Assembly: GCF_030512175.1 (NCBI RefSeq)
Contig: NZ_JAULBL010000002.1
Span: 742,149 to 806,148 of the forward strand
From: Paeniglutamicibacter sulfureus
GTDB lineage: Bacteria > Actinomycetota > Actinomycetes > Actinomycetales > Micrococcaceae
Direction of reading: 5' to 3'
Length of the DNA: 64,000 nucleotides
Position 1 is the stretch's first letter; the number at the start of each line of letters is the position of its first letter. Position numbers and translations under genes: made by a program. The notes under the pieces are model-generated. The model saw only the letters and a program-made list of their open reading frames with translations. It was not told the origin of the DNA and made no database searches. Below, in pieces: positions 1-44,029 of this stretch.

Positions 1-913
1 TGTGGTGCCGTCGGGGCGGTGGATCCGTTCGTTGGCGTCCACCAGGCGCTCGGCGATGGCCTCGTTCAGCTCGGCGAAGGTGGTCCAGGTTTCCTCGGCC
101 AGGTAGCCGATGACCCGCTTTTCGACGGTGTTCACCATCGACTCGACGTGGGCCTTCTGCCGCGGGCGATAGGGGCGGCCGGGACGATCGCGGTGCCGTA
201 GTGCTCGGCCAGCTCCCGGTATCTGGCGGTCACCACCCGCTCGGTGTCCCCGCGTTGTCGCCGGTGCACCGCGCTTGTGGCGTTATCGGGCACGATGATC
301 TGCGTAACGCCGCTGATGAACGCCAGCGCGTTCACGTGCGCCTGGTTCCAGGCGTCCTGCTTCATGTTCGCAAAGGCCTGGCAGAACACCAGTCCCGAAT
401 ACGGCAAGGAGGCAACAAATAGGTAGGCCTTGTGAATCTGGCCGGTGACAGCATCCTGCACCTCCATGGTGTCCCCGACCCAGTCGACGAACATCGACTT
501 GCCCGGCTCGTGGCGCAGCGTCGCGACGACGTCGTTGGATTCGGCAAAGCGGCCGAAAAGTTCGGCAAACTGCGAATACTGATACTTCTTCCCGGGATTT
601 CCTGCGGCATCCATGTAGCGGGTCCAGGCCTGTTGGATGGTGAAATGCCGGTTCGTTTTCATCGCGGCGAATACTCAACCTTGGAAAAGTCGGGCTGCGC
701 ATATTCCGAGGACACGTTGCTGCGCCCGTCGGGGAACAATGCGGCAGTATCCGTCTTGCTCATTGTCCCGAATTGTTCCGCGGTGATGGCGCCGGCTTCG
801 ATGGTTTTCTTCACCATCGACACATCGCGGCGTGAGCAATTCGCTGATGCGGTGATCTCCGTGTAGCTGCGGTGCTTGAACATCAACGACATGATCGCAC
901 TGTGGTCCACCAT
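1..913 (-). pseudogene. istA: IS21-family transposase IstA, frameshifted and cut by the window edge
   Basis: Minus-strand reading gives a DDE transposase of IS21 type in three frames. The N-terminal helix-turn-helix part (913 to about 670) runs into a stop near 660. The core continues from about 662 in another frame with the catalytic-type segments 'FVDWVGDTM' and 'IVPDNATSAV'. Near 178 one base is missing, after which the frame reads 'YRPRQKAHVESMVNTVEK', the normal IstA continuation, to the left edge. Two frameshifts mean no full-length IstA can be made. The partner gene istB would lie left of the window and is not visible. The start at 913 (MVDHSAIM...) has a purine-rich 'aggag' upstream. 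Sequencing error is an alternative explanation for either shift, but the nearby second remnant argues for real decay. Confidence 0.85.
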
Positions 914-1659: not shown

Positions 1660-4600
1660 CTACGACACTTCGACGGTGGGAGCGTGGGGTCGGTCTGGAG
1701 CCATGACGCTGAACCCAGCTTTTCCCTTCGGTGCGGCAGCATGGGGAAGAGCCCAGGAGAATAGCGTCACGATATTCTCTGGATTGACCACGCCTGGAGG
1801 CAATGCGCTGGGATCCGAAACTGCCGCGTGGCCGTCCCATTGATCTGCTGCGAGTGTAATGATGACTGCCCCCGTCGTTCGGGAAGAAGGGTCGTTGGGC
1901 CCCTTTTTCTTAGTGAAGTCCTCTTCCAGCGGCATTCGTGTCCATCTAGACGATCCAGAGAAATCCCCCCGCTCGCGTCTGTTTCGTTCAATTATAGGGA
2001 ACGAAACCGATCCCGTAACGTCGAGATCAATCTTGCGCATGGCCGGGTTTTTTGAAGGAATTGGCATGACGACCTTGAAGTCAGTGATACTTCCCTTGCT
2101 GATTGCTTCTTTTACGAAGGCAATGTCCGCATCTGCAAAGCCGGGTTTGCTCCACTCAAATGACGCCAGAGCGTCGATGACCACTTGTGCGGGCACGAGG
2201 CCTGTCTTGGCTTTATAAGATGACTGCTTCTCAGTAGTGGTCGTGTAAAAGAAGGTTTCCTCATCCGTCAGAAGGTTGAGCACTGGAGCAATAGCCATCA
2301 GATTCTCGCGGTTCTTGGATTCCTGTGGATTCCGCGCGGGGAGATAGAAGAAGTCCTTAAATCTGTCGCCCTTTGCGTATTGAACGATCTGAGCGTTGTA
2401 CATACGGTTGCGTGCAGTGGGCCTGAGCCACGGCAAGCTTTGGGATACGAGCGGTGGGATATCGATGGGGCGCACTTGAGGTTGCCCATTTTCATCGAGT
2501 TCAGCGAACTGTTCAAGTTGGTCTCGAAACTCTTCCTCATCCTCGATCATGGATTCAAACGCCTCGTACAGATCATAAGGAGTGGGATTCCTGGGCGACG
2601 CCGGAACATTCCGTCCAATGTACAGCCGCACAAGATCTCGATAACCCGGCCGGAAACCGAACCAACGACCCATCTGCATCAAAGTGTCTGCTGCAAGCGC
2701 CTTGCGGGAGTACCAAGTAACAGTAAGGCCCTCAATCGTAAATCCACGGGAGAGTTTCGCCCCTCCCACCAGCATTTTCCACACAGGCCCTTTTTGGAAG
2801 TCAGCTCCCGCCTGAGTGTATTCGCTGTCCTTGTCGCCGTTGACTACCGCGATTGGGCGGAGGCCGCTTTCAATGCGCTTTACGACTTCTGGAATGTAGA
2901 CGCCGACGTCATCAAACGAGGAAGGGACCGGGTGCATTCGATAATCGGGTAACTCCGAATCGTTCCTCGTCGCCAGTCCTCGCATGACAACGTCAAAATC
3001 GTCTGTCCATAGAGCTGCGATGCGGTCATATCCGTCGAAGCCCAGATAATCGGATCTCTTCCACAGGCGGTGTATTTCCTCAGCCAGGGCTTGGTGCTCA
3101 ACCTGCTTCACAGATTCATGGAAAAGCATGGTGTGATGCTTGAAGTCTCCATGGCTGCCTCTAGCTTCGCGCCAGAGCTTGATCGCTCCGGAGAGAACAA
3201 ATGAATCCACGGCTCTCTGCATTTCACGTTGCCGCAGCTCCACAGTGTTGTGCCCTGATGATATGTCCCTAACGTAGGCCGCTTGGTTGCTTGAAACAGC
3301 CGTTCTGGTCTCTCCAGGTTCAAGGACCATATCGCGGTCGTGAAAGGAGCGTCCGCCCATGTATGTGGCGGGAGGGGTCAAACTGAAAATGAAGTCCTTG
3401 GGATAAATGTCCTCAACGTCCGCAGCATCAATGAAGACGTTGGCGAAGGGGGTTGCCGTGTATCCGACGTACTGGGCACGTGGCAAGATTCCCAACAGTT
3501 CCGACAAGAGTTTGTTTATGGCAGTCCGCTCTCGAGACTGCTGGTTTTCTTCATCTTGTTCTTCTTTGGTCAGCGTCAGCGGGGGCTTCTTCGTATTGAT
3601 TCCGGCCTGGTCAGCCTCATCATCAATGATCAGAGCGGGATAGTCTTGAGTGTTGCCGCGAATCTGTTTGAGATCCTTGATGACCTTACGCAATACGGCT
3701 GCATTCTTTTTGATCACCACCAGACGGACTGGTGTATCCCACAGGTTGTCCGGATGGTAGATCTTCTGCTCAGGGTTGCGTATATGTGATTTGTAATCGA
3801 GAGTACTGAGACCGGCTCTCAGCGACTTATAGTCTTCTTTGCTTTTCGTCAGGCGAATGATGTGGGGAACGCCTGGAACGCTTTCAGGGTCGTAGCCGAA
3901 CTTCACGAATTTATCGCCCGCCAACCAGTCTTCATCCCGGTTCGCAATGTAATCGATGGTTTCTTGGGCAAGTGCTTCATCCGAAAGATCTATGCCGCCG
4001 ACAATGTTTTCGAAACCCACTAGCTCCTTGTCAAGGCGGCGTTGGGTCTGGCTTCGAAGAAGCTCAAGGGTGCCGGTCAATACGATGATGAGTCGATAAC
4101 CTGCATCAATCGCTTTGGCTACGGTGCCTGTGAAATTCGCAGTTTTGCCGCTTTGGACATGACCCACGACAAGGCCTTTCGTTTGGTAGGTTTCGTCCCA
4201 TGTGGGGTCTGCGAACCTACTAACGATTTCTGTGGTTGATTCATCCAACGCAACGATGGCATCAGCACTGAACCCACGGCGTTTTAATACGCCTTGGTAG
4301 ACATCCCAGTAATGGCTCCGAGCTCGACGATCCGATGAATACCATGGCCAGCGGCCATCGGTTGGATTCGCGACGATCGTTCCAGCATTGATGATCGGAT
4401 AGTAGGAGTTGATGGATCGATATTCGCTTTCGGCAAAGCCGAGTTTCCCAAGCACGTATGCGCGTCTTTCGGGGCCCTTGGGCTGGATGGAGGACGAGGA
4501 GGCTTCGTTGATAAGCCAATATGCATCGGTTGTCTGGTCCCATCTGGATAGAGCCAGCCGAAATTCGACCTGTATCTGATCGTTCGGATCCCCTTCGCGT

Positions 4601-4755
4601 GTCAGCAGATTGATTAAATCTGCAGGGGTGAGTGTCTCTACTCCGTCTTCCTCCAAGGAGAAATTGACACGATTTAGGAGCGGTTTTGGACCCTTCTCCG
4701 CAATCATCGCGATGGCGCTTGTGATGGCGTCGACCTGGGCTTCTGACTTTGGCAT
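1660..4755 (-). CDS. Z1 domain superfamily-2 helicase/ATPase, last gene of putative defence operon
   Basis: A 1031-residue protein with the layout of Z1-type SF2 helicases. Walker A 'GHVQSGKT' is at about 198-205, the DEAD-type Walker B 'IIDDEAD' near 376-382 and motif III 'GYTATPFANV' at 431-440. The diagnostic Z1 block is 'GGAKLSRGFTIEGL' at about 664-677 followed by 'DTLMQMGRWFG' at 690-700. By family knowledge these enzymes translocate on or unwind DNA and are encoded beside MORC/MutL-like ATPases and nucleases in restriction-like loci. Its ATG overlaps the stop of the nuclease gene as TGATG, so the two are probably translationally coupled. No obvious terminator follows at 1600-1659. Helicase activity itself is inferred. 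Confidence 0.9.
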   Translation of the reverse strand: MPKSEAQVDAITSAIAMIAEKGPKPLLNRVNFSLEEDGVETLTPADLINLLTREGDPNDQIQVEFRLALSRWDQTTDAYWLINEASSSSIQPKGPERRAYVLGKLGFAESEYRSINSYYPIINAGTIVANPTDGRWPWYSSDRRARSHYWDVYQGVLKRRGFSADAIVALDESTTEIVSRFADPTWDETYQTKGLVVGHVQSGKTANFTGTVAKAIDAGYRLIIVLTGTLELLRSQTQRRLDKELVGFENIVGGIDLSDEALAQETIDYIANRDEDWLAGDKFVKFGYDPESVPGVPHIIRLTKSKEDYKSLRAGLSTLDYKSHIRNPEQKIYHPDNLWDTPVRLVVIKKNAAVLRKVIKDLKQIRGNTQDYPALIIDDEADQAGINTKKPPLTLTKEEQDEENQQSRERTAINKLLSELLGILPRAQYVGYTATPFANVFIDAADVEDIYPKDFIFSLTPPATYMGGRSFHDRDMVLEPGETRTAVSSNQAAYVRDISSGHNTVELRQREMQRAVDSFVLSGAIKLWREARGSHGDFKHHTMLFHESVKQVEHQALAEEIHRLWKRSDYLGFDGYDRIAALWTDDFDVVMRGLATRNDSELPDYRMHPVPSSFDDVGVYIPEVVKRIESGLRPIAVVNGDKDSEYTQAGADFQKGPVWKMLVGGAKLSRGFTIEGLTVTWYSRKALAADTLMQMGRWFGFRPGYRDLVRLYIGRNVPASPRNPTPYDLYEAFESMIEDEEEFRDQLEQFAELDENGQPQVRPIDIPPLVSQSLPWLRPTARNRMYNAQIVQYAKGDRFKDFFYLPARNPQESKNRENLMAIAPVLNLLTDEETFFYTTTTEKQSSYKAKTGLVPAQVVIDALASFEWSKPGFADADIAFVKEAISKGSITDFKVVMPIPSKNPAMRKIDLDVTGSVSFPIIERNRRERGDFSGSSRWTRMPLEEDFTKKKGPNDPSSRTTGAVIITLAADQWDGHAAVSDPSALPPGVVNPENIVTLFSWALPHAAAPKGKAGFSVMAPDRPHAPTVEVS

Positions 4756-5753
4756 CAGGACATCCTTAGTAGAGTAACCGAGTAATCAATGAATCCGTTT
4801 AACTCTTCTGGTATCGAATTGGATTGCAGGTGTGATACGTCGGTCCTGTATGAAATTTCGGACAGATGCTCGTAGTTTGCTAGCAACTGGCGCAGAACCG
4901 AGTCTTGCATAGAGGGGAAGTTTTCATTCACGGCGTAGAAGGCTGGTCGTGAGCGGAGCACGTACTTGTTGTTATATGAATCGGAGTCCGCCGCCCTCCA
5001 CCCCAAACTCGCCAAATAATCATTGAAGGGTGCTGAATGATGTCCCAGATCGTCTCGAACCTCCCTTACCAGTTGGAGGAGGCTAAATGAGTTGTCAGCA
5101 GTGCCGGCTGCGGTGATCTGGATGGAAAGGAAAAAAAGTGCACGGTTAACGGTTGGCTCGAGCTGTGTGGCTGAGCCAATGCGGTGGGTTCGTCGTTCCG
5201 ATTTCGTAGTCTTGACTTCTAGGTCGAAGGTACCGAAAGAGAAATCGTGTTGCTCTGCTTCCGGTCCGAGCCAAGATGTCAGTGCAGTGACCGGGTCCAT
5301 GCGGCAGAGATACTTCAATAGAAGGAGCTCTCCCAGTAGACCAGTCTGCTTCTCAGAGCTCAGCAAGCTCCGATTTTGAAGCAGCAGCTCATATTCGTTA
5401 AGGCTCCGTGAAATGGCGTTAGAAAAGAGATTACCGTGCTGCAATTCTTCGACGATCTTGGCAATAAATGAGTACGCCGCATAGTGCATCCCCTCGGCCG
5501 CGAGCTTCAGGCTAAAGTAGTCCTGCGTTGAATCGTTTAGGTATTCAATATCAATGTTTTCGAAGAGACTGAGGTCGGGAATCGAGCCGTCCCCTGGAAC
5601 CTGGAGTTCAATGAATTGGGTGGATGGTTCGATTCGAAGCTCACAATGAGGATCTTGCAAAAGGAGGTGTACGACAGGAGTAGGTGATTTGAAATAGCGC
5701 TCAACGGTTTCGGGATCCAGTCTGGGAATTGTTCCCGGGGGGCTTTGGTGCAT
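4755..5753 (-). CDS. PD-(D/E)XK nuclease-fold protein (DUF4420-like)
   Basis: 332 residues. The nuclease signature is visible as a conserved Glu in 'GLLGELLLL' (about E142), then Asp near 170 and 'FDLEVKTT' (D177, E179, K181), matching the E...D...(D/E)XK arrangement. A Thr/Ser/Arg-rich stretch follows the catalytic lysine, as in related restriction-like enzymes. Proteins of this type (PF14390, DUF4420) are known neighbours of Z1 helicases and GHKL ATPases. It starts 3 bp after the stop of the upstream ATPase gene and its stop overlaps the Z1 start. It is probably the DNA-cutting subunit of the system; sequence specificity cannot be read from the protein. Confidence 0.85.
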   Translation of the reverse strand: MHQSPPGTIPRLDPETVERYFKSPTPVVHLLLQDPHCELRIEPSTQFIELQVPGDGSIPDLSLFENIDIEYLNDSTQDYFSLKLAAEGMHYAAYSFIAKIVEELQHGNLFSNAISRSLNEYELLLQNRSLLSSEKQTGLLGELLLLKYLCRMDPVTALTSWLGPEAEQHDFSFGTFDLEVKTTKSERRTHRIGSATQLEPTVNRALFFLSIQITAAGTADNSFSLLQLVREVRDDLGHHSAPFNDYLASLGWRAADSDSYNNKYVLRSRPAFYAVNENFPSMQDSVLRQLLANYEHLSEISYRTDVSHLQSNSIPEELNGFIDYSVTLLRMS

Positions 5754-5756
5754 CGT

Positions 5757-7301
5757 CTACTCACTACCATTCTTCTCGGGGTCTGGCGCACTAAAATCTT
5801 CAGCAAATGCCGATAACAGAACGTCATTCAGGAGGCGTTGTCGCTCTTCTCTCACAGCGCTCCATCGTTGCTCAACTTTGAAATCGTTTTCCAGAAGAAA
5901 ATAAAGGAAAGTCTTGAGCAACTGTCCGTCCCGGTTGCTAAAGCGTCCTTCGGATCCATAAATTTTCCGCACAATTTCTACATTGATGTCGATTCGTCGC
6001 GCTATGCGATCGGCCCTGAAGAGCTCGGTGGCTGGGAGGGTGACGAAACGGAGATCAATTGAATCGGATTCAGCGAAATTCTGGAGGTCATTTAACCGGG
6101 ACATAACCGCGGGGTTCAGGCCTATCGAGGGTTCAACGAGCTGTATTTCTTGGCGCTTCATCCTCTTGGAATCTTTGTGCGCCCTTTGAAGGTCGGAAAA
6201 GTAAGATTCCAAGGAAACGGGTGAAGGCCCCAAACTACGAGAACTAGCCATTGATTTGGTGAAATCTGCCGAGTATACGGGCGTTACTTTCTCAGGATTG
6301 AGAGTTATGTAGTGATCGCCATCTGCCTCCAAATCGATCTTGATTCGACCAAGCCCCAATTCTTTTTTCGGAAGACGGAGACCGGCCCAGTTTTGGCCAC
6401 CCGATATGAGTCTCCCCCGTCGATATAAGTAGATTCCTTGCCTAGCTTCTCCAGGTTCCCCATACAGGTTAAACGTTGGAGAGTTTAGGCGCGGGGGAAA
6501 CATATGTGCCTCAATCGTGCAGGATGTTCCATCCGGAAGATCGACTAGAAAATTACGTGGGTAGCTGTCGCGATGCAAAGAATCTTTGAACGGGTCAATG
6601 GCACCCACCAGAAGCGGGGGGAGAGCCCGTTTGCGATCAACGTCGAATGTATCTATTGCTATTTCTACGTTTCCGAGTTCCAAGTGACGATGAAATGTGA
6701 CTCCAAGGTGTTCGCGGATGGAACGAAGGTTGGCTGATCTCCATTCCGTAAGCTCTCCTTGATCGGATGTGTGAATCACATCTTTCAGGCCGCGCCACTC
6801 GACCACGGTGCCGCTTGAAAGGTCCATACCCGACACGTCTTCGAGTCGCTCATTTGCGGCCCCTGCCTCCATCACCCCCACGCTGAAGTCGAGGCTTACG
6901 GACTGGTCCATTCTGCGACCAACTGCTGGTCCCCACTTCTGACGTGAATAGATTTCGAAGGAATAAGCCTGGGATAGGGAGGCAGCCTTGAGGCCGAGCC
7001 CAAAATGTCCCAGGTCCTCCGCTTCGTACTCCCGCCTCGCCCCAAAAGTCATCGCACGTTTGATTCCCTCGGCTGTTAGGCCGTTTCCGTTGTCGATGAT
7101 TTGCAGCCCCAAGATGCTGGTGCCCTGCTGCACGAAGCGGATCCGTACGTGTGTGGCAGCGGCATCTATTGAATTATCAACTAGGTCGGCCAGGGCGCTT
7201 GTAAGGGTGTGGTGCATGCCAATAGCGGCAATTGTCGAAGGGTCCGGCAGGACAGTCTCAAAAGACCATTGCCGCTCGTCAAGTTCGTATCCAGCCATCA
7301 T
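5757..7301 (-). CDS. GHKL (Bergerat-fold) ATPase, MORC/MutL/Hsp90-like
   Basis: 514 residues with a textbook N-terminal Bergerat fold: N-box 'ALADLVDNSIDAAA' (36-49), G1 'DNGNG' (70-74) and G2 'LGHFGLGLK' (about 97-105). The middle region resembles the S5-like transducer of MORC and MutL-type ATPases. The C-terminus is basic and partly helical ('SKRMKRQ', 'VREERQRLL'). Such ATPases dimerise on ATP binding and act as clamps or switches on DNA. The gene begins 5 bp after the large ATPase gene. Two ATG codons in tandem (7301 and 7298) are possible starts and the ribosome site (AAGAAAA) is weak, which fits translational coupling to the gene before it. Confidence 0.9.
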   Translation of the reverse strand: MMAGYELDERQWSFETVLPDPSTIAAIGMHHTLTSALADLVDNSIDAAATHVRIRFVQQGTSILGLQIIDNGNGLTAEGIKRAMTFGARREYEAEDLGHFGLGLKAASLSQAYSFEIYSRQKWGPAVGRRMDQSVSLDFSVGVMEAGAANERLEDVSGMDLSSGTVVEWRGLKDVIHTSDQGELTEWRSANLRSIREHLGVTFHRHLELGNVEIAIDTFDVDRKRALPPLLVGAIDPFKDSLHRDSYPRNFLVDLPDGTSCTIEAHMFPPRLNSPTFNLYGEPGEARQGIYLYRRGRLISGGQNWAGLRLPKKELGLGRIKIDLEADGDHYITLNPEKVTPVYSADFTKSMASSRSLGPSPVSLESYFSDLQRAHKDSKRMKRQEIQLVEPSIGLNPAVMSRLNDLQNFAESDSIDLRFVTLPATELFRADRIARRIDINVEIVRKIYGSEGRFSNRDGQLLKTFLYFLLENDFKVEQRWSAVREERQRLLNDVLLSAFAEDFSAPDPEKNGSE

Positions 7302-7306
7302 TTTTC

Positions 7307-10300
7307 TTAATGCTCAAACCGGGCTTGGCCGCCGAGTTTCGATATATTTTCCATTACTTTGTCAGCCGATTCACTGGCGATACCTCGCGAGGCATCCACT
7401 TCAAAGTTGAGTCTTAAGTCAAAGACGTCAGCATCGGGAGTATCCAGATAGCGAAGCACCGCCTGTTCAATCAATTTCATTTGTTCGTCCAAGTTCCTAG
7501 ATGCGTCAAGAGGGATAAATCCGCTGACATGCGTCTTGAGCTGCTGCTCGGGCTCTGCGGCGGGTTCGTCATTTTCCGTAGCATCCGGGGCGGTTTTCGC
7601 TAATCGGCGCATCTCTGCTTCAACGTCCGCGGTACGCCGAGAACTGCCGGCTTCCAATAACAGAGCGGTGAGCAGCCTTCTACTGGATAGGGCTGAGGAA
7701 TAGTAGAATTTCATACCCTCGCGAAAAGTCTCATGTGCTTCCACATTTTGCTCGTCGTTGAAGCTGTTTGACCGGATTGTACGCAACGAAAGGCAGGGGA
7801 CGCATTTGGAGCTCCGCCTGATTTTTGCTTCAACCTGAGACAAGAAGGGAAACAGATCGTTAATGGTCTTGGTTTCCGATTCCACATCCTCCGAGTATTC
7901 GAAAGCGCTAAATAGATCCACCTTAATCGCTTGGAGTTTCCACCGTTCTGCCAGGGGAACCGACAGTTCCGTGTTTCCGACATACAGTGCTGGTTTCTTC
8001 GCGGATTTCAAAAGAAACTGGTATGTATCGTCGTCGTTTGCTACAACGACAAAATCCGCTGGGTATCGGGTGCTGGAACCATCGGCTTGCTGGACTACTA
8101 ACTCTTTGGGTCGACGAACACCAAGTTTTGCCAAAATTCCATATAGCTCATGAACTCGTCCAACCGGGAGCTTTTCTTCAGCCAAGGGCAGAGCAAAGCC
8201 CCAGTTGATGGCATCGACCGAATCCGCCAATCCAAGCTTCTCAGCGTGTGCCGGCCCAGGATAGGGAAGGAAGCCGACAGGTATCTCGTTTACTGCGCCG
8301 GTGCAATACTTGACGTCAACCAAGTCCAGTCGCGTTTGGAGGACCCCAAAGTTCCGGACCCACCACATGTCTGGTCCCTCGATGGTTTGCGCAGTCTTGT
8401 AGGCGCTACTGAACTCCACCTTAGATTTGTACTGTTCGGCAGAAAGTATTCTTTGGGTTACCTTTTCGCGTGTGCGAACAGACGCTTTGCACAGGAGATG
8501 GAGCCCTTCAGTTCCCATCGCGGTGCTGAAACGAAGTGATGCTTTTGACACAGGTACGGCTGAATTGACTGATTCTTCCGAGATTCTCGCAGCCTCCGCC
8601 GACTGCCACATCTCATACGTTTTCCCACTGTTCATAGAGGTGGGATCCGACAGGCCACTCTTAATCTTGAGATTCTTCAGGAGGTTGAGGTCCTGCCTGT
8701 GAAATTGATCGTCCACAAGTAGGTGTTCGTCTCCTATGCTGCCAGAAGCGATCAATCCGTTGGGAAGCCAAACGTTAATGGTGGGCCGCCAAAGGCCGTC
8801 TTTTGAACGGATAAGCAGTTTGTCGATGTCGATCCAACTGTTAATGATAGTCAAGAGTTCGGGAACTGGTAGAGCTCTCGAAAGGCGCCAAAAAGACTCT
8901 GCTGCCCCCGCGTCCTCGTAGTCCTTTGAAACCTGTCGGGCGACTCGATCAACCTTGCCCCTGCCATCAAGAGCCTGGAAGTCCAAGGCTTTCAGCAAAG
9001 TACCCGAGTCACCGTGGTGCAGGAGTTCGTAGGAAACGAGGTTATCTCCCTTGTCTTCTCCATCCAGCGGAAGGAACACTTTTGTAGTGATGGGCGGCCG
9101 GGCGCTCCCATCCTGCATGAGTATGATTCTGCTTCGGCGCATGGCGGCCTGATGCTCCGGATGGCGCTTATCGATCTCCACCGCGACTCTCAAGGCATTT
9201 TCGAAGTCGTCGAGCCGATGGCCATGCGTGATTTCTTCAAGCCATTTCTCGACTGGTGCTCTACCCTTGTTAGCGTTGCCAAGGAGCCGGCGCACCATGA
9301 GCCGGCGTTCCTTGGTAGTCGATGCGGACCGGTGCAACCAGGGCCGATCTATCTTCACCGAGTTATCCCACATCTCTTCAATGCGAGTGGCTTCGTCTAG
9401 GTCAGGGGGGAAGAAAAGATCGGAAATGGGCTGAGGCACCCCGGCCCTGTCTGGCAGGCAGGGGACGGTCGATAGAGCAACGAAGATCGGCTCATTGATG
9501 ACGGTGTCCGCCCAGGAAATGATCTCGCGTCCGCGAGCAGGCAATAGATCCAAAAACGAGGCGGGATCCTTTTCATCGTGAAACGTCGATAACGCCCCGG
9601 CTACCAGTATTGGGACAGCCTTCTGGAGGATTTCCTTGTTGTAAAGCGTGTGAAGCATGCTGTGGCGGTCTTCGTTCATCTTGAAGGCCGCGTTCACAAT
9701 TCCCCGCAGTGTTGTCACATGGCTTGTCGGGAAGTAGTTCCAGAAGGAGCCTCGCTGGCGGCGGGGATTGCCAACCAGGGGTACTGCCCAAGTGACTTCG
9801 ACGATTTCTCGAGCTGCGATCGACCCTGCCTCTACGGCAGCTTGCTCACTGATGCGATGCATATATCGGAAGATTCGCCATTCTTCCTTCGTTTCACTGT
9901 CTTCCAAGATGATATTGGAGCCATCACGTCGTGCAGACCACGCCGTAAAAGTCCCGTCAATTCTGTTTTCGAACTCTAGGGAACCAACGTTCTGTGAAAA
10001 TAGCAGAAATTCATGAGGAAAATCGTGCATCTCCTTGCCGAGCCATGCAGGTTGCTGAACCAAAGGGAGCTTTACAACCGTCGTCGCCCAGGACATGAGT
10101 TCTCCCAGAATGGGATCGGAACCGGCTGCATCAACAGGATCCACTGGAGTCGCGATTCGTAATACGGGGTATGACGTCAGTCCCGGATACAGCGGTTCCA
10201 GGAGCTCATTGCTACGTCCTCGGTCCCATCTAACGGAACCGCTGGTGCTGAAAATTTGAGGGGCGTCCGAAATCTGAATGACCGACTTGAAACCAAGTCC

Positions 10301-10645
10301 GAATCGCCCAATCTGGTCGTCTCTCTTCTCCGAGGAATGCGACAGCATCAACGTACGGTATCCGGCCTCAGTAAAGGGCGAACCTTCATTCGCGCAGTAG
10401 AGCGCATGCTCCGTTAGCACGATCCGTATGCGGCCATTTGGAAGATCGACGGCATCGGCTGCGTTCTGGATTAGCTCATTCAGCTGTTTACGCCCATACC
10501 CACTCTGAGTAATCGCCTGTTCGATATTGCTATGTTCGCGTACCAAATCCGGACGTGCTTTGTACGCGTTCAATGCTTGCTGTGTCTCGCCTTCCACAAA
10601 GCGGCTCAGTTCGCTCTCGATACCCGCCCAAGATCCGTATGGCAA
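7307..10645 (-). CDS. Large sacsin-like GHKL ATPase, first gene of putative defence operon
   Basis: About 1112 residues from the chosen TTG at 10645. It is preceded by GGGAG with a 7-nt gap and begins '(M)PYGSWAGIESELSRFV', a natural start for this family. The open frame extends to a TTG at 10777, which has no good ribosome site. Bergerat-fold motifs are N-box 'QLNELIQNAADA' (about 54-65), the sacsin-type G1 'CANEGSPF' (84-91, Asn in place of the usual Asp) and G2 'IGRFGLGFKSV' (112-122). The remaining roughly 950 residues carry no motif I recognise and end in an Ala/Glu-rich acidic linker and a short terminal domain. It is probably the sensor or regulatory ATPase of the operon. Its pairing with a second GHKL ATPase is unusual. 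Confidence 0.85.
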   Translation of the reverse strand: MPYGSWAGIESELSRFVEGETQQALNAYKARPDLVREHSNIEQAITQSGYGRKQLNELIQNAADAVDLPNGRIRIVLTEHALYCANEGSPFTEAGYRTLMLSHSSEKRDDQIGRFGLGFKSVIQISDAPQIFSTSGSVRWDRGRSNELLEPLYPGLTSYPVLRIATPVDPVDAAGSDPILGELMSWATTVVKLPLVQQPAWLGKEMHDFPHEFLLFSQNVGSLEFENRIDGTFTAWSARRDGSNIILEDSETKEEWRIFRYMHRISEQAAVEAGSIAAREIVEVTWAVPLVGNPRRQRGSFWNYFPTSHVTTLRGIVNAAFKMNEDRHSMLHTLYNKEILQKAVPILVAGALSTFHDEKDPASFLDLLPARGREIISWADTVINEPIFVALSTVPCLPDRAGVPQPISDLFFPPDLDEATRIEEMWDNSVKIDRPWLHRSASTTKERRLMVRRLLGNANKGRAPVEKWLEEITHGHRLDDFENALRVAVEIDKRHPEHQAAMRRSRIILMQDGSARPPITTKVFLPLDGEDKGDNLVSYELLHHGDSGTLLKALDFQALDGRGKVDRVARQVSKDYEDAGAAESFWRLSRALPVPELLTIINSWIDIDKLLIRSKDGLWRPTINVWLPNGLIASGSIGDEHLLVDDQFHRQDLNLLKNLKIKSGLSDPTSMNSGKTYEMWQSAEAARISEESVNSAVPVSKASLRFSTAMGTEGLHLLCKASVRTREKVTQRILSAEQYKSKVEFSSAYKTAQTIEGPDMWWVRNFGVLQTRLDLVDVKYCTGAVNEIPVGFLPYPGPAHAEKLGLADSVDAINWGFALPLAEEKLPVGRVHELYGILAKLGVRRPKELVVQQADGSSTRYPADFVVVANDDDTYQFLLKSAKKPALYVGNTELSVPLAERWKLQAIKVDLFSAFEYSEDVESETKTINDLFPFLSQVEAKIRRSSKCVPCLSLRTIRSNSFNDEQNVEAHETFREGMKFYYSSALSSRRLLTALLLEAGSSRRTADVEAEMRRLAKTAPDATENDEPAAEPEQQLKTHVSGFIPLDASRNLDEQMKLIEQAVLRYLDTPDADVFDLRLNFEVDASRGIASESADKVMENISKLGGQARFEH

Positions 10646-10857
10646 AGTGTGTCTCCCAAGAAAATTGATGACCGTCAAACATCCGCTGCGGAATGACAGA
10701 TGTACTTGTTTTGCAGAGTATCCCATGGGCGACCATTGCAAAAAAACACGACTCGCTTCTTCGGTGAAAAATTTCAAGAGAGTTCTGATTTAGCGTTGTT
10801 AACGCGTAGTGGCATCTTTTTATGGAAGTATTTCTAATTAGCGCTTCAATAATGCGT
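10646..10857 (-). promoter_or_regulatory. Presumed promoter region of the defence operon
   Basis: AT-rich leader upstream of the operon, read on the minus strand. The stretch around 10800-10850 contains 'ttgaag' followed by an AT-rich run with 'cataaa', a loose promoter-like pattern. No strong consensus -35/-10 pair and no operator were identified. The placement follows from the operon's start, not from a clear motif. Confidence 0.3.
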
Positions 10858-11062
10858 TGCAGTGAGCTCATCGAACAGGCAGCCGGGGTGCGCATGGTGA
10901 TCCTGTGCAACCCCGGCAACCCCACCGGACGGGTCCACGCCGAATCGGACCTGCAAGGCACTTGAGCAGGCGCTTGCGGAGAACCCTCAGCTGTTGCTGC
11001 TCGCCGACGAGGCCTACGCCCTCACCAACTTTGACGGCTTGGGGTTCACTTCCGCACGGTAA
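10858..11062 (+). pseudogene. Fragment of a class I/II PLP-dependent aminotransferase
   Basis: Plus-strand reading from 10864 gives 'ELIEQAAGVRMVILCNPGN' followed by 'PTGRVHAESDLQ'. The Asn-Pro-x-Asn-Pro-Thr-Gly motif is the hallmark of this aminotransferase fold. A frameshift near 10957 moves the frame to 'ALEQALAENPQLLLLADEAY', with the Asp-Glu-x-Tyr motif that contacts PLP, ending at a TAA at 11060-11062. The N-terminal domain and the catalytic lysine are absent, so the enzyme is dead. The break on the left coincides with the start of the defence island, which suggests that insertion or deletion destroyed a chromosomal gene here. Confidence 0.75.
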
Positions 11063-11283
11063 AACGTCAGGTTGGATTCCCCGTGCACCGTGGTGCCCTT
11101 GTTGCCAATCGTGGTCTTCTTGACGCCCAGCAAGTCGCCCAATTGCTGTGCTCGCATATGCATCGGCTGCGACGGGTCGAACAGGAAGTTCTCCGACACT
11201 AGCGCGTTGAGGATCCCGCTGGCCCAGATCCGCAGGTCTCCGCGCAGATGTGAGGATGATCGTTTGCGCGCGAGTTTGCCCAC
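11063..11283 (-). pseudogene. Remnant of a DUF6398-like protein
   Basis: The minus-strand frame reads 'HLRGDLRIWASGILNAL', then 'NFLFDPSQPMHM' and 'LGDLLGVKKTTIGNK'. This resembles the small DUF6398 domain (a pattern of a W-A-x-G-I-L helix, 'NFLFD' and a helix-turn-helix-like segment). The start region and normal C-terminus are missing and the frame runs into the aminotransferase fragment. It is probably a gene end left by rearrangement. Nothing recognisable lies between 11284 and 11567. Confidence 0.45.
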
Positions 11284-11567
11284 CGCATTGCGGGAACCAG
11301 AGGTTTGGGGTGATTAGGCCAAAGTGGCGGTGAGGGACGTGCGACCGGTTCGCACCTCCACGCTGGTGCAAGGGGAGCTTGCTCAGTTGCGCAGGTCAAT
11401 TCCCGTGGTTTCCTTTCTATGTCATAGAAAAGGCTGAGCCCAGATTGACGATGATCGTGTAGACATTGAATGCCCATCCAAGATTCGCAGAGTTGGAATA
11501 GGCGTTCAAGTGGAAGTACCGCTGATAATCGCGACGGTGAGCAACATTTCCTTGCTCAGGATACGGC

Positions 11568-11608
11568 GCGGTAGTGTTCGGCTGGGATAACCAGCCGAAC
11601 ACTACCGC
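11568..11608. repeat. Perfect 18-bp inverted repeat with 5-nt loop
   Basis: The left arm GCGGTAGTGTTCGGCTGG (11568-11585) and its exact reverse complement at 11591-11608 are separated by 'gataa'. No T-run follows on either strand, so it is an atypical terminator for the minus-strand gene ending at 11696. It could instead be two abutted insertion-sequence ends with a short spacer. Region 11609-11695 holds nothing else recognisable. Confidence 0.7.
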
Positions 11609-11695
11609 CCTCTAAGACTCAGCTAACCTTCAAAAGGTGTTGCGGCGATCCTAGAATCGTCTCGTGGCATACCAATCCGCTTTGCTTTGCAGCGT

Positions 11696-13435
11696 CTAGT
11701 GGACTTCTACGTCCTCATAGGTTTCAACTTCTTCGTGGCCTTTGCTGGCCATTTTCGTCTCGACGCTCTTGAAGGAGACGTTCGGGTCGGTGTGGACGAC
11801 AAGAACGCCAACTCCGCCTGCAGACAGCAGCGCCTTCAGGCCAGAGCGCACCTCGTCTTCGCTGCGGGCCGACTCCACATTGCACCCTATGGCGAAAGCA
11901 ATAGCAGCGTGATCAAAGGGGTGGAAGTCGGACAGTAGGGGACGATCGCCTTGTCCGTGCTTAACCCAGCCAAGCATTTGGTTGTCCATCAGCACCGCGA
12001 TAAGCGTGCGCTGACTCTCCACAGCAGTCATGAGCGCGTGGAGGCTCATGGCGAAGCCCCCGTCGCCGGTCACCGCGACGGGGAGTCGGCCGGGATCAGC
12101 GAAGTTGACTGCCAGCGATGCTTGGATGGCGTAGCCCATGCCTCCGCCGCCGTTGGGTTGAAGTAGGTCCATTCCCTCACGGACCTGAAAGTCGTGCAGC
12201 ATGTATATGCGGTTCTCGCCTGCGTCGCAGGTGAGAGTCGCGTGGGATGGCAGTACTTCGCTCAGGATCCGCGCGAGTCGACGGGGATGGACGCGTTCCC
12301 GATCTTTCCAATCTTCGATGTTGATCTCGTTGTACAGTCCGCCACTGGCGAGGACATGTGTTTCACCCTCGAAACTCTTATCTCCGAGCGCTTTGGAAAG
12401 CATCGGAAGCGCAGCTGCGGCGTCCCCTAGGATCCCCGTGGCTACCGGCTGGGTCCAGCCAATGTTCAGCGGCTCTATATCAATCTGTACGATCGCCTGG
12501 CGTCCGGCGTCGACCAGGTCTTTCCGCTCATTTAGCAGATCCGAGGAGCCCAGCTTCGTCGCGATGGCGATGATGACATCAGCCCTCGCGACGAGCTCGT
12601 TCGCGGAGTCTTGGCCGTGTGATCCCATGGTCCCTCCCGCTAGAGAAGATTCTTCGTTGAACACTCCCTTGCCGCTCGACGTCGTCACTACGGGGATTCC
12701 GTGGGCTCGGGCGAATGCGGCAAGAGCTGCACGGGACTTCTCGGAGCGAGCACCATTGCCGGCGATGATCACGGGAGTAATCGCCTTAGCGAGCACCTTT
12801 GCAGCTTCCGCAATCGATTCCTCAGACGGTGTGGGATTGATCGGCGCGTAACCCTTCGTGGCATGAAGTCGCTCAACTCCATCCTCACCGAGGGGAGCGA
12901 GAAGCGCAGCTGAATGGAACACAACAGTCACCGGCCCAGGCTGCCCGGTCATGGCGTGTTTGTAGGCGAGCTGGGTCATCTGCACGGCCTGCACCGGATC
13001 GATCGCCACGAACACGCGCTTACTGATCGCATCCATGGCCCGGGCCAGATCGTATGCCCCGTACCCACCGAAGCCCGACTGGTATGGACCGTGGTGCGAG
13101 AAGCTTCCTCCCTCTGTAGCATCGATGAGGATCACTGCCGGGGATGCCCCGAGGTGGGCCTCCATAACCCCGATGCCGCCAGCCCCAAGAACCCACGCGC
13201 CTTGCGCCATTACTACGGCTGGAGTGTGTGCGATGCGGCCGTAGGCCTCGGCCATGACCGTACCGATGGACTCCTCGCGCACTAGGACGCACTCCACGCG
13301 GTCCTGCATGCTATGAAGCGCGTCATAGATATTGATCGTGTGGCCACCTGGCATACCGAAGACGAGCGGGCGTTCGAATTCTGCGATGACCTTGGCGACG
13401 CCTGTGGCGCCGAAATCGTTTGCACTAAAGTTCAT
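11696..13435 (-). CDS. Thiamine-diphosphate-dependent enzyme, acetolactate synthase-like
   Basis: 579 residues, the usual length for the acetolactate synthase/benzoylformate decarboxylase superfamily. The PYR domain begins 'VFGMPGGHTINIYDAL' and has the activating Glu in 'REESIGTVMAEAYGR'. A central nucleotide-binding-like domain follows. The C-terminal PP domain carries 'VTGDGGFAMS...DNQML', the Gly-Asp-Gly...Asn motif that binds ThDP and Mg. AAGGAAAGAAG precedes the ATG. It is the last gene of an operon with an SDR and a LIV-type ABC transporter, so a catabolic C-C lyase or decarboxylase is more likely than branched-chain amino acid synthesis; no small regulatory subunit is nearby. The substrate is unknown. 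Confidence 0.8.
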   Translation of the reverse strand: MNFSANDFGATGVAKVIAEFERPLVFGMPGGHTINIYDALHSMQDRVECVLVREESIGTVMAEAYGRIAHTPAVVMAQGAWVLGAGGIGVMEAHLGASPAVILIDATEGGSFSHHGPYQSGFGGYGAYDLARAMDAISKRVFVAIDPVQAVQMTQLAYKHAMTGQPGPVTVVFHSAALLAPLGEDGVERLHATKGYAPINPTPSEESIAEAAKVLAKAITPVIIAGNGARSEKSRAALAAFARAHGIPVVTTSSGKGVFNEESSLAGGTMGSHGQDSANELVARADVIIAIATKLGSSDLLNERKDLVDAGRQAIVQIDIEPLNIGWTQPVATGILGDAAAALPMLSKALGDKSFEGETHVLASGGLYNEINIEDWKDRERVHPRRLARILSEVLPSHATLTCDAGENRIYMLHDFQVREGMDLLQPNGGGGMGYAIQASLAVNFADPGRLPVAVTGDGGFAMSLHALMTAVESQRTLIAVLMDNQMLGWVKHGQGDRPLLSDFHPFDHAAIAFAIGCNVESARSEDEVRSGLKALLSAGGVGVLVVHTDPNVSFKSVETKMASKGHEEVETYEDVEVH

Positions 13436-13472
13436 GATCTTCTTTCCTTCTTTCTAACTGTGTGTCAGGGTT

Positions 13473-14282
13473 TTAAAATTCGGTAGTGCCGCCGTCGATC
13501 GGGATGACGGTTCCTGTCACGTAGGAACTCTGATCAGTGGCGAGGAATTGTAGGACATCTGCGCAATCCTCAGGTGTACCGAATCGGCGTAGGGCTACCT
13601 CATCCGTGAGTGATTCGCTGCCCATGGATTCGAACATGACTGAAAGGCGTCCGGTGGCGATGTAGCCGGGCGCTACGCAGTTGACAGTGATCCCTGCCGG
13701 GCCCAGTTCCTGAGCCAGATACTTCGTGTACATGATGATCCCGGCTTTGGCTGCGCCGTAGTGGGCGTAGCCTCCGCCTCGGTCCGCACGACGTCCGGCC
13801 TGCGACGACACCGTGATGATGCGCCCCCAACCGTTGTCTCGCATGTGCGGTACCGCAGCCCGGCAAGTGAAGTAGGTGCCGTAGAGATTGCGCTCCACCA
13901 CGGCAGTGAAATCCGAAGGGTCCACACTGCTAGCTAGGGTGGTCGCAGGTGTTCCGGATCCACCTCCCGCGTTACAAACGACAATGTCGATGCTGCCGAA
14001 TTCTGCGGCGATCTGGTCGAAGGTGGACTTCACCGAGTCCTCCTCGGTCACATCACACGTGTAGGACTCGGCCTTCCGGCCAAATTTCCTAAGGGCTTCT
14101 TCGGCCGGAGTTCCGCCGACGAGCTTGTTCTCGGCGTCATATTCCTCATAGGACCGAACGTTCTGGTCGACAACAGCAACGTCGGCACCCAGCTGGGCAA
14201 GTCTGAGCGCATACGCGCGCCCAATTCCTCGTGCGCCGCCGGTGACTATGGCTGTCTTGCCGTTAAGCGATTTGGCACTCAT
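13473..14282 (-). CDS. Short-chain dehydrogenase/reductase
   Basis: 269 residues, classical SDR. The N-terminal cofactor motif 'TGGARGIG' (about 14-21), the 'CNAGG' variant of the NAG motif near 105, the catalytic Ser in 'TVSSQAG' and 'YGAAK' are all visible, as is the C-terminal 'GTVIPIDGG'. An insert around residues 42-60 ('SYEEYDAENKLVGG') is typical of the mycofactocin-type or carveol-dehydrogenase-like SDRs of actinobacteria. No mycofactocin genes are in the window, so cofactor use is open. Its start overlaps the stop of the ABC ATPase gene by 4 bp (ATGA) and the ThDP enzyme gene follows 37 bp later. It probably oxidises an alcohol intermediate of the compound imported by the transporter. 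Confidence 0.85.
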   Translation of the reverse strand: MSAKSLNGKTAIVTGGARGIGRAYALRLAQLGADVAVVDQNVRSYEEYDAENKLVGGTPAEEALRKFGRKAESYTCDVTEEDSVKSTFDQIAAEFGSIDIVVCNAGGGSGTPATTLASSVDPSDFTAVVERNLYGTYFTCRAAVPHMRDNGWGRIITVSSQAGRRADRGGGYAHYGAAKAGIIMYTKYLAQELGPAGITVNCVAPGYIATGRLSVMFESMGSESLTDEVALRRFGTPEDCADVLQFLATDQSSYVTGTVIPIDGGTTEF

Positions 14283-15037
14283 TTGCTCACTTCTTTCCTT
14301 GTTTCGCTCGGATCGGGGGAGAAGGACGCAATGCCGAGCATTACGTCTTTCAGCCGGGGGTCGGTCAGCAGGGCTTCGCCTGTTCCCGATAGATATGTCT
14401 GGCCCTCCTGCATGGCATAAGCGCGGTCGGCCATCCGCAGCGTGCGGGTGACGTTCTGTTCGACGATCAGCACGGTGACGCCCTGATCTGCGACGTTGCG
14501 GATGATATCGAACAACTGGGACACGACGATGGGTGCGAGGCCTAATGAGGGTTCATCGAGCATCATCAACTTTGGTTTGGCCATTAGGGCGCGGCCAATG
14601 GCGAGCATTTGCTGCTGACCACCACTGAGCTCACCAGCGCGTTGTGCCTTTTTCTCGGCGAGAATCGGCAGCATCGCATAGATCTCGTCTTGGGTCGCTT
14701 TCGCGCCGGTGCGGGCCTTCTTTGAGTAAGACCCCAGCAAAAGGTTGTCCTCGACTGACAGGTTCTTGAACAGGTGCCTGTTCTCCGGCACTTGTACCAG
14801 GCCCAACTCCGGGAGTTTTGACGGTGCGGCATCGGTGATGTCGTGACCGTTGAACATGACTGATCCTGACGTCAACCTGTTGAATCCCGAGATCGCGTTG
14901 ATGACGGTAGTCTTCCCTGCACCATTGGCGCCGACGAGAGCCACGATTTCACCGTCATCCACATGGAACGACATGGAGTTCAATACACGAATGTGTCCGT
15001 AGGCGAAATCGGCGTTGGAAATATCAAGAAGCGGCAT
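14279..15037 (-). CDS. LIV-type ABC transporter ATPase, LivF family (system 1)
   Basis: 252 residues. Walker A 'GANGAGKTT', signature 'LSGGQQQMLAIGRAL' and Walker B 'LMMLDEPSLGLAP' are intact. The 'PENRHLF' segment and the short length place it in the LivF branch of hydrophobic amino acid uptake (HAAT) transporters. It works at the inner face of the membrane with the LivG-type partner to drive import. Start and stop overlap both neighbours, so translation is coupled. Solutes of this family range from branched-chain amino acids to aromatic acids, amides and urea; context here favours a catabolic substrate. Confidence 0.92.
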   Translation of the reverse strand: MPLLDISNADFAYGHIRVLNSMSFHVDDGEIVALVGANGAGKTTVINAISGFNRLTSGSVMFNGHDITDAAPSKLPELGLVQVPENRHLFKNLSVEDNLLLGSYSKKARTGAKATQDEIYAMLPILAEKKAQRAGELSGGQQQMLAIGRALMAKPKLMMLDEPSLGLAPIVVSQLFDIIRNVADQGVTVLIVEQNVTRTLRMADRAYAMQEGQTYLSGTGEALLTDPRLKDVMLGIASFSPDPSETRKEVSK

Positions 15038-15755
15038 ACGTCTCTCCTAGGTAGGACTGAATAACGGCCTGGTCGTTGAAGACTTCGTCTGCAGTGCCCT
15101 CGGCGATCTTCTTGCCTTGATTCATCACCACGATGCGTTGCGCCAGTTCGGTGACAGCCTTCATGACGTGTTCAACCACAATGAGGGTTGTTCCGGATCG
15201 GTTGATATCGCGGAGCGTGTCAAGGAACCCATCGAGTTCCTCAGGGTTGAGGCCAGCCATCATTTCGTCGAGGAGGAGCACCTTGGGCCCGGTCGCAAGC
15301 GCCCGTGCGACTTCCATCCGTTTCTGGCCCGACAGCGTCAGGTCCTGCGCCACCACCTGCATCTTGTCGCCGAGGCCCACGGTGCGACATGCGTCGGCGG
15401 CGATCTCGTGGGCAGCGGCAGTGGACGACGTTTGTGAGAATGCTCCGACCATCGCATTCTCGATAGCCGTCATCCCTTGTAGCGGCCTCACGACCTGGAA
15501 GGTCCTAGCAACGCCGCGTCGACACATTTCGAAGTCTCGGGCTTTGGTGACGTCTTCGCCGAACGCCACGATCTTTCCCGTGGTCGGTTGCGTCGAGCCG
15601 GCGATCAGGTTGAAAAGCGTGCTCTTACCCGCGCCGTTGGCTCCGACGAGCCCCAATAGTTCTCCATTGTTGACGTGGAAGTCCACTCCGTCGACGGCGC
15701 GCACACCACCGTAGTGCTTCGACACTCCGGTTGCTTCGATCAGGCGCTCAGCCAT
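15024..15755 (-). CDS. LIV-type ABC transporter ATPase, LivG family (system 1)
   Basis: About 243 residues from the ATG at 15755, chosen because GAGGAGG lies 6 nt upstream; the frame remains open to 15776. Walker A 'GANGAGKST', LivG-type signature 'LTLSGQKRMEVARALATG' and Walker B 'VLLLDEMMAGLNP' are visible. It pairs with the LivF-type ATPase in the same operon. The start lies inside the 3' end of the permease gene, a small overlap consistent with coupled translation. Confidence 0.92.
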   Translation of the reverse strand: MAERLIEATGVSKHYGGVRAVDGVDFHVNNGELLGLVGANGAGKSTLFNLIAGSTQPTTGKIVAFGEDVTKARDFEMCRRGVARTFQVVRPLQGMTAIENAMVGAFSQTSSTAAAHEIAADACRTVGLGDKMQVVAQDLTLSGQKRMEVARALATGPKVLLLDEMMAGLNPEELDGFLDTLRDINRSGTTLIVVEHVMKAVTELAQRIVVMNQGKKIAEGTADEVFNDQAVIQSYLGETYAAS

Positions 15756-16887: not shown

Positions 16888-17750
16888 GCTGCTTCTCCTT
16901 TCATGATTCCGCGCGGGAGAACGACGAGGATAACGCCGAACAGGGCTAGGACGATGACTTGGCTAAGAGCCGCACCGACAAAATAGCCGGACACTGACTC
17001 GACGACTCCGACGATGAGACCACCGATAAGGGCACCGACGACGCTTCCGAGGCCGCCTAGGACCACCACGACGAAGGCGATGGTCATCATGGTCATGCCA
17101 ATGGTCGGGAAAACGGGATAGATCGGCAGGAGCACTGCAGCCGCGATACCGGCCAACGCCGCTCCGACACCCATCGTGATGAGGTAAATTCTCTTCACAG
17201 GGATGCCCATTAGTTGTGCTGCGTAGCCGTCCATTGCCGTTGCCCGGATCGCCTTGCCGATAAGCGTCTTGTCAAGGAATACGAGCAGCGCCACCGTCAC
17301 GACTATTGCTATAACGAAAGCGATGACACGCGTCATACCCAAGTTGATGGGCCCCAGCGAGATCGCCCCGGTGAAGCTGTCCGACATTGTCGCGGATCGG
17401 AAATTTCCACCGAACAGCACCAACGCGAGGCTCTGCAGAACGATTCCTATCCCCAGCGTTAACACGATTTGTCGTGTGTGCCCGCTGTTGATTGTCCATT
17501 GGATCAACCCGTAGTGAATCAGCGCGCCGAACGCAAACATGACTATGGCCACGATTGGCAGCGCGACGTAAGGGGAAAGCCCGAGCCCTTGGTTCAAGAA
17601 GAAGGTAAGAAACATGCCCACCATCATGAAATCACCATGTGCGAAGTTCACGACCTTGAGAACTCCGAAGATGAGCGTGATACCGCCAGCCAACAGTGCG
17701 TATACACCTCCGATCAACAGTCCAGAGGCGATGAGTTGTATGAAAGTCAT
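16884..17750 (-). CDS. LIV-type ABC transporter permease, LivH family (system 1)
   Basis: 288 residues, hydrophobic throughout. The LivH signature 'GVYALLAGGITLIFGVLK' is at the N-terminus, followed by 'VNFAHGDFMMVG', and a coupling segment 'RATAMDGYAAQLMGI' near the middle. AAGGA lies upstream of the ATG at 17750. It is separated from the binding-protein gene by a 69-bp gap that contains a hairpin, a common arrangement that lets the binding protein be made in excess of the membrane parts. Confidence 0.92.
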   Translation of the reverse strand: MTFIQLIASGLLIGGVYALLAGGITLIFGVLKVVNFAHGDFMMVGMFLTFFLNQGLGLSPYVALPIVAIVMFAFGALIHYGLIQWTINSGHTRQIVLTLGIGIVLQSLALVLFGGNFRSATMSDSFTGAISLGPINLGMTRVIAFVIAIVVTVALLVFLDKTLIGKAIRATAMDGYAAQLMGIPVKRIYLITMGVGAALAGIAAAVLLPIYPVFPTIGMTMMTIAFVVVVLGGLGSVVGALIGGLIVGVVESVSGYFVGAALSQVIVLALFGVILVVLPRGIMKGEAA

Positions 17751-17785
17751 GGAAAAATCCTTTCCGATCGAGTGTTAGCCGAACG

Positions 17786-17811
17786 GGGCTAGCGGATGCG
17801 GCCGCTAGCCC
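17786..17811 (-). terminator. Intercistronic hairpin between binding protein and permease genes
   Basis: Arms GGGCTAGCG (17786-17794) and CGCTAGCCC (17803-17811) pair perfectly around an 8-nt loop. It sits directly after the stop of the binding-protein gene. No strong T-run follows, so partial attenuation or 3' mRNA protection is more likely than full termination. Confidence 0.55.
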
Positions 17812-17819
17812 ATATCCAA

Positions 17820-44013: not shown

Positions 44014-44029
44014 CAGATAGGACCATCTA

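Follow-up and report, generated by a model that had tools for sequence, protein, structure and literature searches.

How could a restriction-type operon spare the DNA of its own host when no methylase gene stands beside it? The question is raised by four genes found at positions 1660-10645 of a 64,000-nt stretch of the Paeniglutamicibacter sulfureus genome (hereafter, the window; plain numeric coordinates are window positions, and C9 coordinates refer to the host contig). They encode, in order, a sacsin/Hsp90-like GHKL ATPase, a MORC-family GHKL ATPase, a DUF4420 PD-(D/E)XK nuclease, and a Z1-type helicase-like motor. An earlier note, made from the letters of the window, had proposed that the sacsin-like ATPase replaces the DNA methyltransferase (MTase) usual in such systems and that self/non-self discrimination must, hence, work differently.

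We came to another answer. We consider it moderately likely that the four genes are the effectors of an ATP-dependent anti-phage system of the restriction type, in which methylation protects the host, the guard being supplied by a cytosine-5 (m5C) MTase encoded just outside the window. That the system lacks a methylase was an attractive but mistaken conclusion, prompted by where the window had been cut, and we correct it here.

A Methylase Precedes the Unit in Most of Its Relatives

The four genes recur as a unit, as the gene-neighbourhood analysis reveals: they are found together in 10 loci including the window, and the nine others all belong to Micrococcaceae. These nine are plasmid p2MP of Arthrobacter sp. 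68b (75.8% DNA identity to the window over 1660-10645), G039, and 7 of the 18 loci found with our sacsin alignment (L067-L072 and L078); several are close kin and thus non-independent. In eight of the nine, an m5C MTase gene lies directly upstream of the sacsin-like gene and on the same strand, giving the order MTase, sacsin-like ATPase, MORC, DUF4420 nuclease, Z1 (the MTase was called with PF00145 by Pfam in L060, L021, and L078 and by phmmer in the remaining loci). The replacement of the methylase by the sacsin-like ATPase is thus rejected, since both occur together in these eight units.

The ninth unit, that of Glutamicibacter ardleyensis (L069), has no upstream MTase. There, a NaeI-like restriction endonuclease (PF09126, 5e-31) and a family m5C MTase lie directly downstream of the four genes (L069:19358-21611), the MTase being 1.3 kb beyond Z1 and on the other strand. 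Judged from its gene content, this locus is a second case parallel to the window. In each of eight records or genomes searched, one match only to the p2MP MTase has an E-value below 1e-70; this single match stands at the operon in seven of them, and in the remaining one it is 1.3 kb away from Z1; weaker matches (7e-28 or worse) occur elsewhere in G570, G572, G574, and G576.

Loss of the Operon's Methylase and a Relative Nearby

As the earlier note had stated, no methylase was found in the 64-kb window (best tblastn E 1.9). This is, however, an edge effect, because a member of the MTase family lies 3.9 kb past the left edge. With family MTases at 1.3 kb from Z1 in L069 and at 5.5 kb in the host, the idea that discrimination must work differently loses its ground. 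A methylase consistently encoded just outside, the situation that the note had opposed to its own proposal, is closely approached, i.e., directly upstream in eight of the nine other units and within 5.5 kb in both exceptions.

Blastn homology between the window and p2MP stops at 10645, and about 25 bp beyond this point, including the ribosome site, are still recognizable by eye when compared with the relatives. The window copy has thus lost its operon MTase, together with the leader that close relatives retain. No gene was recognized in 10646-11700, and the stretch 10640-11700 gave no match in a distant search of the plasmid collection. Scrambled gene fragments occupy 10868-11300, just upstream of the operon; by eye, we take one to be aminotransferase-like and one to resemble a plasmid-borne conserved protein, the plasmid collection giving no match.

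Where could the guard come from? Searching the 4.55-Mb host genome for m5C MTases, we found two. The first (C9:194627-195982) has a target recognition domain (TRD) core 33% identical to that of the p2MP MTase. The second (C9:737179-738237) is a family member, 54% identical to the p2MP MTase; it shares the variable island of the operon, and 5,514 bp separate its start from the Z1 stop. Its TRD core is 76-77% identical to those of the p2MP and G039 MTases, for about 50% in the catalytic part. The guard is now probably supplied by this neighbouring MTase.

Divergent from it, a gene encodes a GHKL ATPase of 592 amino acids (aa) with a C-terminal Hypoth_Ymh (HEPN) domain. This Ymh-bearing ATPase would be of the paraMORC type, because Ymh is placed among the HEPN families, fused to pMORC or sharing operons with restriction-modification genes (PMC3710099, in the part available). 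It is related to the BbrUII/HgiDII enzymes and scores 211 bits against NF050001, below the cut-off of 550. A broken IS21 stands between this pair and the operon. Besides the integrase core listed in Table 1, it matches IstB (PF01695, 4e-37) and Mu-transpos_C_2 (5e-19); the istA pieces fall in at least two frames, and one more of them, with istB, is located past the left edge of the window. Of the IS remnants and broken genes announced for both flanks, an IS remnant is confirmed on the left; no recognized gene was seen on the right.

We also looked at co-occurrence in 198 related genomes, host genome included (the same-species genome G198 is outside that set and was searched separately). The MTase family (E ≤ 1e-40) is present in six of them (G000, G039, G044, G059, G145, and G188) and a close Z1 relative (E < 1e-100) in five (G000, G039, G059, G188, and G051, the last being a C-terminal remnant). 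All four genomes with an intact close Z1, the host among them, carry the MTase family, and the remnant genome G051 does not. The hypergeometric probability of four intact-Z1 genomes among the six MTase-family genomes of 198 is 2.4e-7, and a further co-occurrence probability is 1.6e-5; both figures are uncorrected for kinship, count the host genome from which the question arose, and use thresholds picked after the data were seen. The full-length Ymh-type ATPase (E < 1e-100) is found in three genomes (G000, G145, and G188), all within these six, and at E ≤ 1e-20 in seven genomes. It directly follows Z1 in G188; in G419, an MTase is located beside MORC-nuclease-Z1 along with a Ymh-type ATPase whose sequence is divided between two frames. 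Finally, both units without an upstream MTase have a family MTase nearby, versus a second one in none of the eight others (p 0.02, the flanks compared being unequal).

Gene Layout and Identity of the Subunits

The ORF (open reading frame) list, the profiles, and the motifs kept in relatives all confirm four intact, coupled genes (Table 1). The sacsin-like and MORC genes are 5 bp apart, the MORC and nuclease genes 3 bp, and the nuclease and Z1 genes overlap by one base in TGATG. None of the four ORFs contains an internal stop over ~3000 codons. The sacsin-like gene starts at 10645 (a longer mechanical ORF starts at 10777), and the same TTG start is found in p2MP, L067, L068, L070, L071, and L072; just 5' of it, GGGGGAG is present in five of these six relatives (L072 is slightly different) and GGGAG in the window. 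GC content is 0.49-0.55 in 1-kb windows within the unit and 0.57-0.61 in the right flank.

Table 1. Features of the four-gene operon and its surroundings (window positions).
Feature	Coordinates	Strand	Description
Sacsin/Hsp90-like GHKL ATPase, first gene of the unit	7307..10645	-	1112 aa, TTG start
MORC-family GHKL ATPase	5757..7301	-	514 aa, HATPase_c_3 and MORC-specific S5 motif
DUF4420 PD-(D/E)XK nuclease	4755..5753	-	332 aa, PF14390; catalytic set E142, D170, E179-x-K181
Z1-type superfamily II helicase-like motor	1660..4755	-	1031 aa, PF10593
Replaced upstream region, no recognized gene	10646..11690	.	lacks the MTase gene and the conserved leader seen in relatives
Integrase-core piece of broken IS21 istA	132..662	-	rve PF00665, 4e-8

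The membership of these genes in the MORC/Z1/DUF4420 restriction theme holds. The Z1 protein (E = 7e-48) keeps, like its relatives, VQSGKT and DDExD (Walker A/B), LSRG, and DTLMQMGRWFG; the latter, at residues 690-700, corresponds to the DThhQXuRhFG pattern of superfamily II helicases. In the MORC protein (HATPase_c_3, E = 4e-21), DNSIDA, DNGxG, and FGLGLK are also conserved in relatives, and GIYLYRRGRLI, from residue 289 and near-identical in relatives, fits the MORC-specific motif GhXhhpXXRhl (S5) defined by Iyer, Abhiman, and Aravind in 2008 (PMC2292703). MORC2 and MutL were matched in a PDB sequence search with this protein; the same search found none with the Z1 protein and none with the nuclease profile. 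The nuclease was recognized by DUF4420 (E = 4e-35), and its catalytic residues (E179-V-K181 for the last two) are invariant in 16 sequences.

The sacsin-like protein keeps QNAADA and GRFGLGFKS in common with its relatives. It scores exactly the cut-off (32.8 bits) with SACS PF25794 and 77.7 bits, above the cut-off of 50, with NF047352 (sacsin N-terminal ATP-binding domain); in the PDB, phmmer recovers sacsin chains (E 0.001-0.003). Its AlphaFold model (pLDDT 80.6), compared by Foldseek, gives Hsp90/TRAP1 as the best match (E 2e-7) and sacsin SR1 at 1e-5, with low whole-query TM-scores (0.10-0.22).

With dN/dS (nonsynonymous to synonymous rates) of 0.065-0.144 against p2MP, at a dS of 1.3-1.85 that is near saturation, the four genes are, from this comparison, under purifying selection.

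A Variable Island

The variable nature of the region is borne out: the segment is absent from the same-species genome G198, as judged by the Z1 search, and DNA similarity breaks at its bounds. Similarity to G008, G003, and G198 (same species) ends at C9:736894 and resumes, in G008, at window position 20293 (fetched stretches only, hits under 150 bases dropped). The Z1 protein found no match in G198 and G008, while the host genome searched alongside was matched, and a DNA search of G198 with a 9-kb left-flank stretch returned nothing. The variable segment contains the outside MTase/ATPase pair, the IS21, the four genes, and a transporter cassette. At 14279-19076 and again at 42745-45948, the window holds two ABC transporter cassettes, which we take from their translations to be of the branched-chain amino-acid type.

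At the matching site (L090, L091), G008 carries PLD-ResIII helicase, NERD, and AAA genes. Because another genome holds other helicase/nuclease-type genes at this place, the variable segment is likely a defence hotspot.

Proposed Mechanism and Competing Explanations

In the reading that we favour, unmodified target sites would be recognized and then cut by the PD-(D/E)XK subunit. The Z1 motor would translocate on ATP, and the two GHKL ATPases would remodel the complex, clamping or looping the DNA. Host DNA would be spared by cytosine-5 methylation from the neighbouring MTase in place of the lost one. ATP-driven cleavage of unmodified DNA is the most likely activity, an equal specificity and a present activity being presumed. 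This mechanism is drawn from precedents. Restriction by CglI/NgoAVII is powered by a Z1-containing ATPase, with an m5C MTase as the guard (PMC4267653), and GHKL ATPases are considered as DNA-looping or complex-remodelling engines (PMC2292703).

We would go further only tentatively. It is possible, though rather doubtful, that the sacsin/Hsp90-like ATPase is integral to an ATP-driven restriction machine that, at two loci, shed its own methylase and relies on that of an adjacent system. If true, the guard donors would be a paraMORC-HEPN-type pair in the host and a NaeI-like pair in Glutamicibacter, and in each case both systems would be locked into one addictive unit. Such guard-sharing would show how restriction genes survive the loss of their own methylase, and would bear on the transfer and addiction of restriction systems.

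Several results weigh against the favoured reading. TRD-core identity to the neighbouring MTase is 53-77% across full-length family rows; this similarity being family-wide, an equal target is unproven. A phylogeny of 32 MTases, flagged for long branches, groups the neighbour weakly (support 81/82) with the MTases of G188 and G460 and not with the p2MP group; on this basis, it is related to the lost gene without being that gene. It may also serve only its own Ymh-type ATPase partner. M.HgiDII is reported as an m5C MTase for GTCGAC (PMC5867850). Neither this site nor GCCGGC is depleted in 124 kb of the host genome, where they rank 17 and 48 of 64 palindromes. GCCGGC is the NaeI target. On the side of the effector, the AlphaFold model of the nuclease (pLDDT 85.5) found no match with E below 0.1 in the PDB by Foldseek (best 0.2), and its fold thus rests on Pfam and the invariant residues. 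The operon may also be silent, as its native leader is gone and a crude consensus scan upstream of it detected no sigma70-like site on the - strand and one on the + strand. In relative-rate tests with L069 as the outgroup, the sacsin-like protein evolves somewhat faster in the host lineage: 87 v 54 against p2MP (chi2 7.7), 82 v 60 against L067 (chi2 3.4), and, in the two remaining comparisons, 87 v 56 and 86 v 58 (chi2 3.4-7.7 over all four). MORC shows a slight excess (30-32 v 19-23, chi2 0.9-2.9) and the nuclease and Z1 none, so that a significant acceleration in this lineage is limited to sacsin.

Alternatively, the operon would be an orphaned silent remnant, in which the MTase loss was tolerated as the leader and promoter went too, leaving four unexpressed genes heading to decay. 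The replaced leader, the operon strand devoid of a promoter-like site, and the acceleration of sacsin all fit with this, and decay does occur in the family. Indeed, G051 retains a C-terminal Z1 remnant (L064:5440-6582, a 381-aa frame, 78% identical), the other three genes being absent from the 12 kb around it and DUF4420 without a match in the genome, and the MTase is split in L146. We nevertheless hold this explanation to be unlikely, because the four ORFs are intact and none has lost a catalytic motif, the nuclease and Z1 are not accelerated, the ribosome site and start are retained, and the scan for promoters relied on a crude sigma70 consensus.

It is less probable still that two independent restriction systems share a defence hotspot, i.e., the MTase/Ymh-ATPase pair on one side and, on the other, the four-gene unit with some other guard. 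Defence genes do cluster, the matching site of G008 is occupied by other helicase/nuclease-type genes, IS21 separates both sets, and the TRD similarity is family-wide. However, G188 and G419 again combine the Ymh-type ATPase and the MTase family with MORC-nuclease-Z1, and both are also present in G145, a genome with a sacsin-SF2 (superfamily 2 helicase) fusion; this recurrence exceeds what one would expect if a hotspot were shared by chance. The methylase-independent variant of the earlier note, in which the sacsin-like ATPase senses DNA ends or phage proteins, is the least credible: it finds an echo in the two operons (window and L069) without an MTase and in the significant rate excess borne by sacsin alone, and is opposed by the upstream MTase of the other relatives, the family MTase close to both exceptions, and the sacsin-SF2 fusions, which have an upstream MTase in 8 of 11 loci and thereby indicate that sacsin goes with the MTase and not instead of it.

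Comparison with Known Systems

The unit resembles the MORC-Z1 operons, the third operon type of Iyer et al. (PMC2292703), in its S5-motif MORC, its DThhQXuRhFG helicase, its E-D-ExK nuclease, and the cytosine methylase of its relatives. It differs from them by the additional 1112-aa sacsin/Hsp90-like ATPase and by the missing operon MTase; in that type, the methylase is frequent and not strict, and here it is found in eight of nine relatives, with a family member 5.5 kb from the window operon. The term sacsin has 0 occurrences in the available text of PMC2292703.

With MZA (mzaABCDE), the unit shares homologous ATPase, Z1, and PD-(D/E)XK subunits. Canonical MZA membership is ruled out, since the NCBIfam scores are far below their cut-offs (MzaB 98/850 for MORC, MzaC 282/1500 for Z1, and MzaD 65/420) and no AIPR subunit was detected at E ≤ 1e-3 in C9:736149-754148 with a profile built from one sequence. 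Moreover, sacsin is extra in the window unit, whose gene order is unlike that of the AIPR-bearing relative on pASPHE302. A putative system of types I and II combining Z1, DUF4420 (printed DUF4220 in the text), and a cytosine MTase (Nat Commun 2022, PMC9523054) has the same core of Z1 protein, PD-(D/E)XK nuclease, and m5C MTase; the window unit has no AIPR, and a sacsin-like partner is unmentioned in the available part of that account. CglI/NgoAVII similarly associate an m5C MTase, a separate nuclease, and a Z1-containing ATPase motor, but the CglI nuclease is a PLD-B3 protein and not a DUF4420 PD-(D/E)XK one, and its three genes are described, in the accessible part of PMC4267653, without GHKL ATPases.

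The N-terminal ~400-500 residues of the sacsin-like protein match the Tiamat-like TmtA of PADLOC (best E 9e-48), the C-terminal part being uncovered and the protein sitting in a multi-gene unit.

Thus, going by the available parts of these sources, the core of Z1, PD-(D/E)XK, and cytosine MTase (PMC9523054) and the MORC/Z1 restriction operons (PMC2292703) are already known. No bacterial sacsin/Z1/DUF4420 combination appears in titles or abstracts among the open-licence matches listed, and in the literature searched we did not find in print the sacsin-like subunit or the two losses of an upstream MTase beside another family MTase. This sacsin-bearing variant of the MORC/Z1 theme places an Hsp90-like module, of a kind known from a human ataxia protein, in a defence-type operon.

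Other Partners in the Wider Class

Among 394 genomes of the class to which the host belongs, 31 contain DUF4420, at 33 places in all. Around all 32 places outside the host (regions of 11-20 kb, in-house profiles, E ≤ 1e-5), Z1 is present in 32 of 32 and an m5C hit in 30, the two without it being L147, an 11.1-kb contig in which a Vsr gene is present, and L156. In L146, the m5C hits fall in three ORFs and two frames (12191-13723) beside an intact MORC-nuclease-Z1, and the gene looks broken; in L135, the m5C hits that adjoin the Z1 genes are likewise split over frames.

The sacsin module is also found with another helicase. In the 11 remaining loci found with the sacsin alignment (L073-L077 and L079-L084), the sacsin part runs into an SF2 (RadD-like) helicase, forming a chain of ~1550-1675 aa; the same chain is seen in L026 and L027, and L023, L024, and L025, which correspond to the contigs of L074, L077, and L082, respectively, were not counted a second time (helicase domains were checked by Pfam in L023-L027). 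MORC, nuclease, and Z1 gave no hit in the available flanks of these 11 loci. Eight of them have an upstream MTase, which belongs to the p2MP family in four (L079, L080, L082, and L083) and to a distant type in the other four (L074-L077); the contig end truncates L073, and in L081 and L084 the MTase hits are elsewhere. The bacterial sacsin-like module, therefore, pairs with different helicases, either a fused SF2 or a separate Z1. As the fusions mostly have an MTase upstream, their gene content suggests that the helicase partners of the module are swapped.

Conversely, MORC-DUF4420-Z1 follows other front proteins. In L062, L063, and L150, it is located behind a Swt1-HEPN/DUF499 protein (by Pfam for L062 and L063 and by an in-house profile for L150) and a methylase-like gene, with an m5C MTase adjoining. 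This methylase-like gene may be DUF1156-like, the tested pieces having no Pfam hit. In L062, a Ymh-type ATPase follows Z1. Because these three loci pair it with other front proteins, the MORC-nuclease-Z1 set looks, from its gene neighbourhoods, like a portable module with several front ends.

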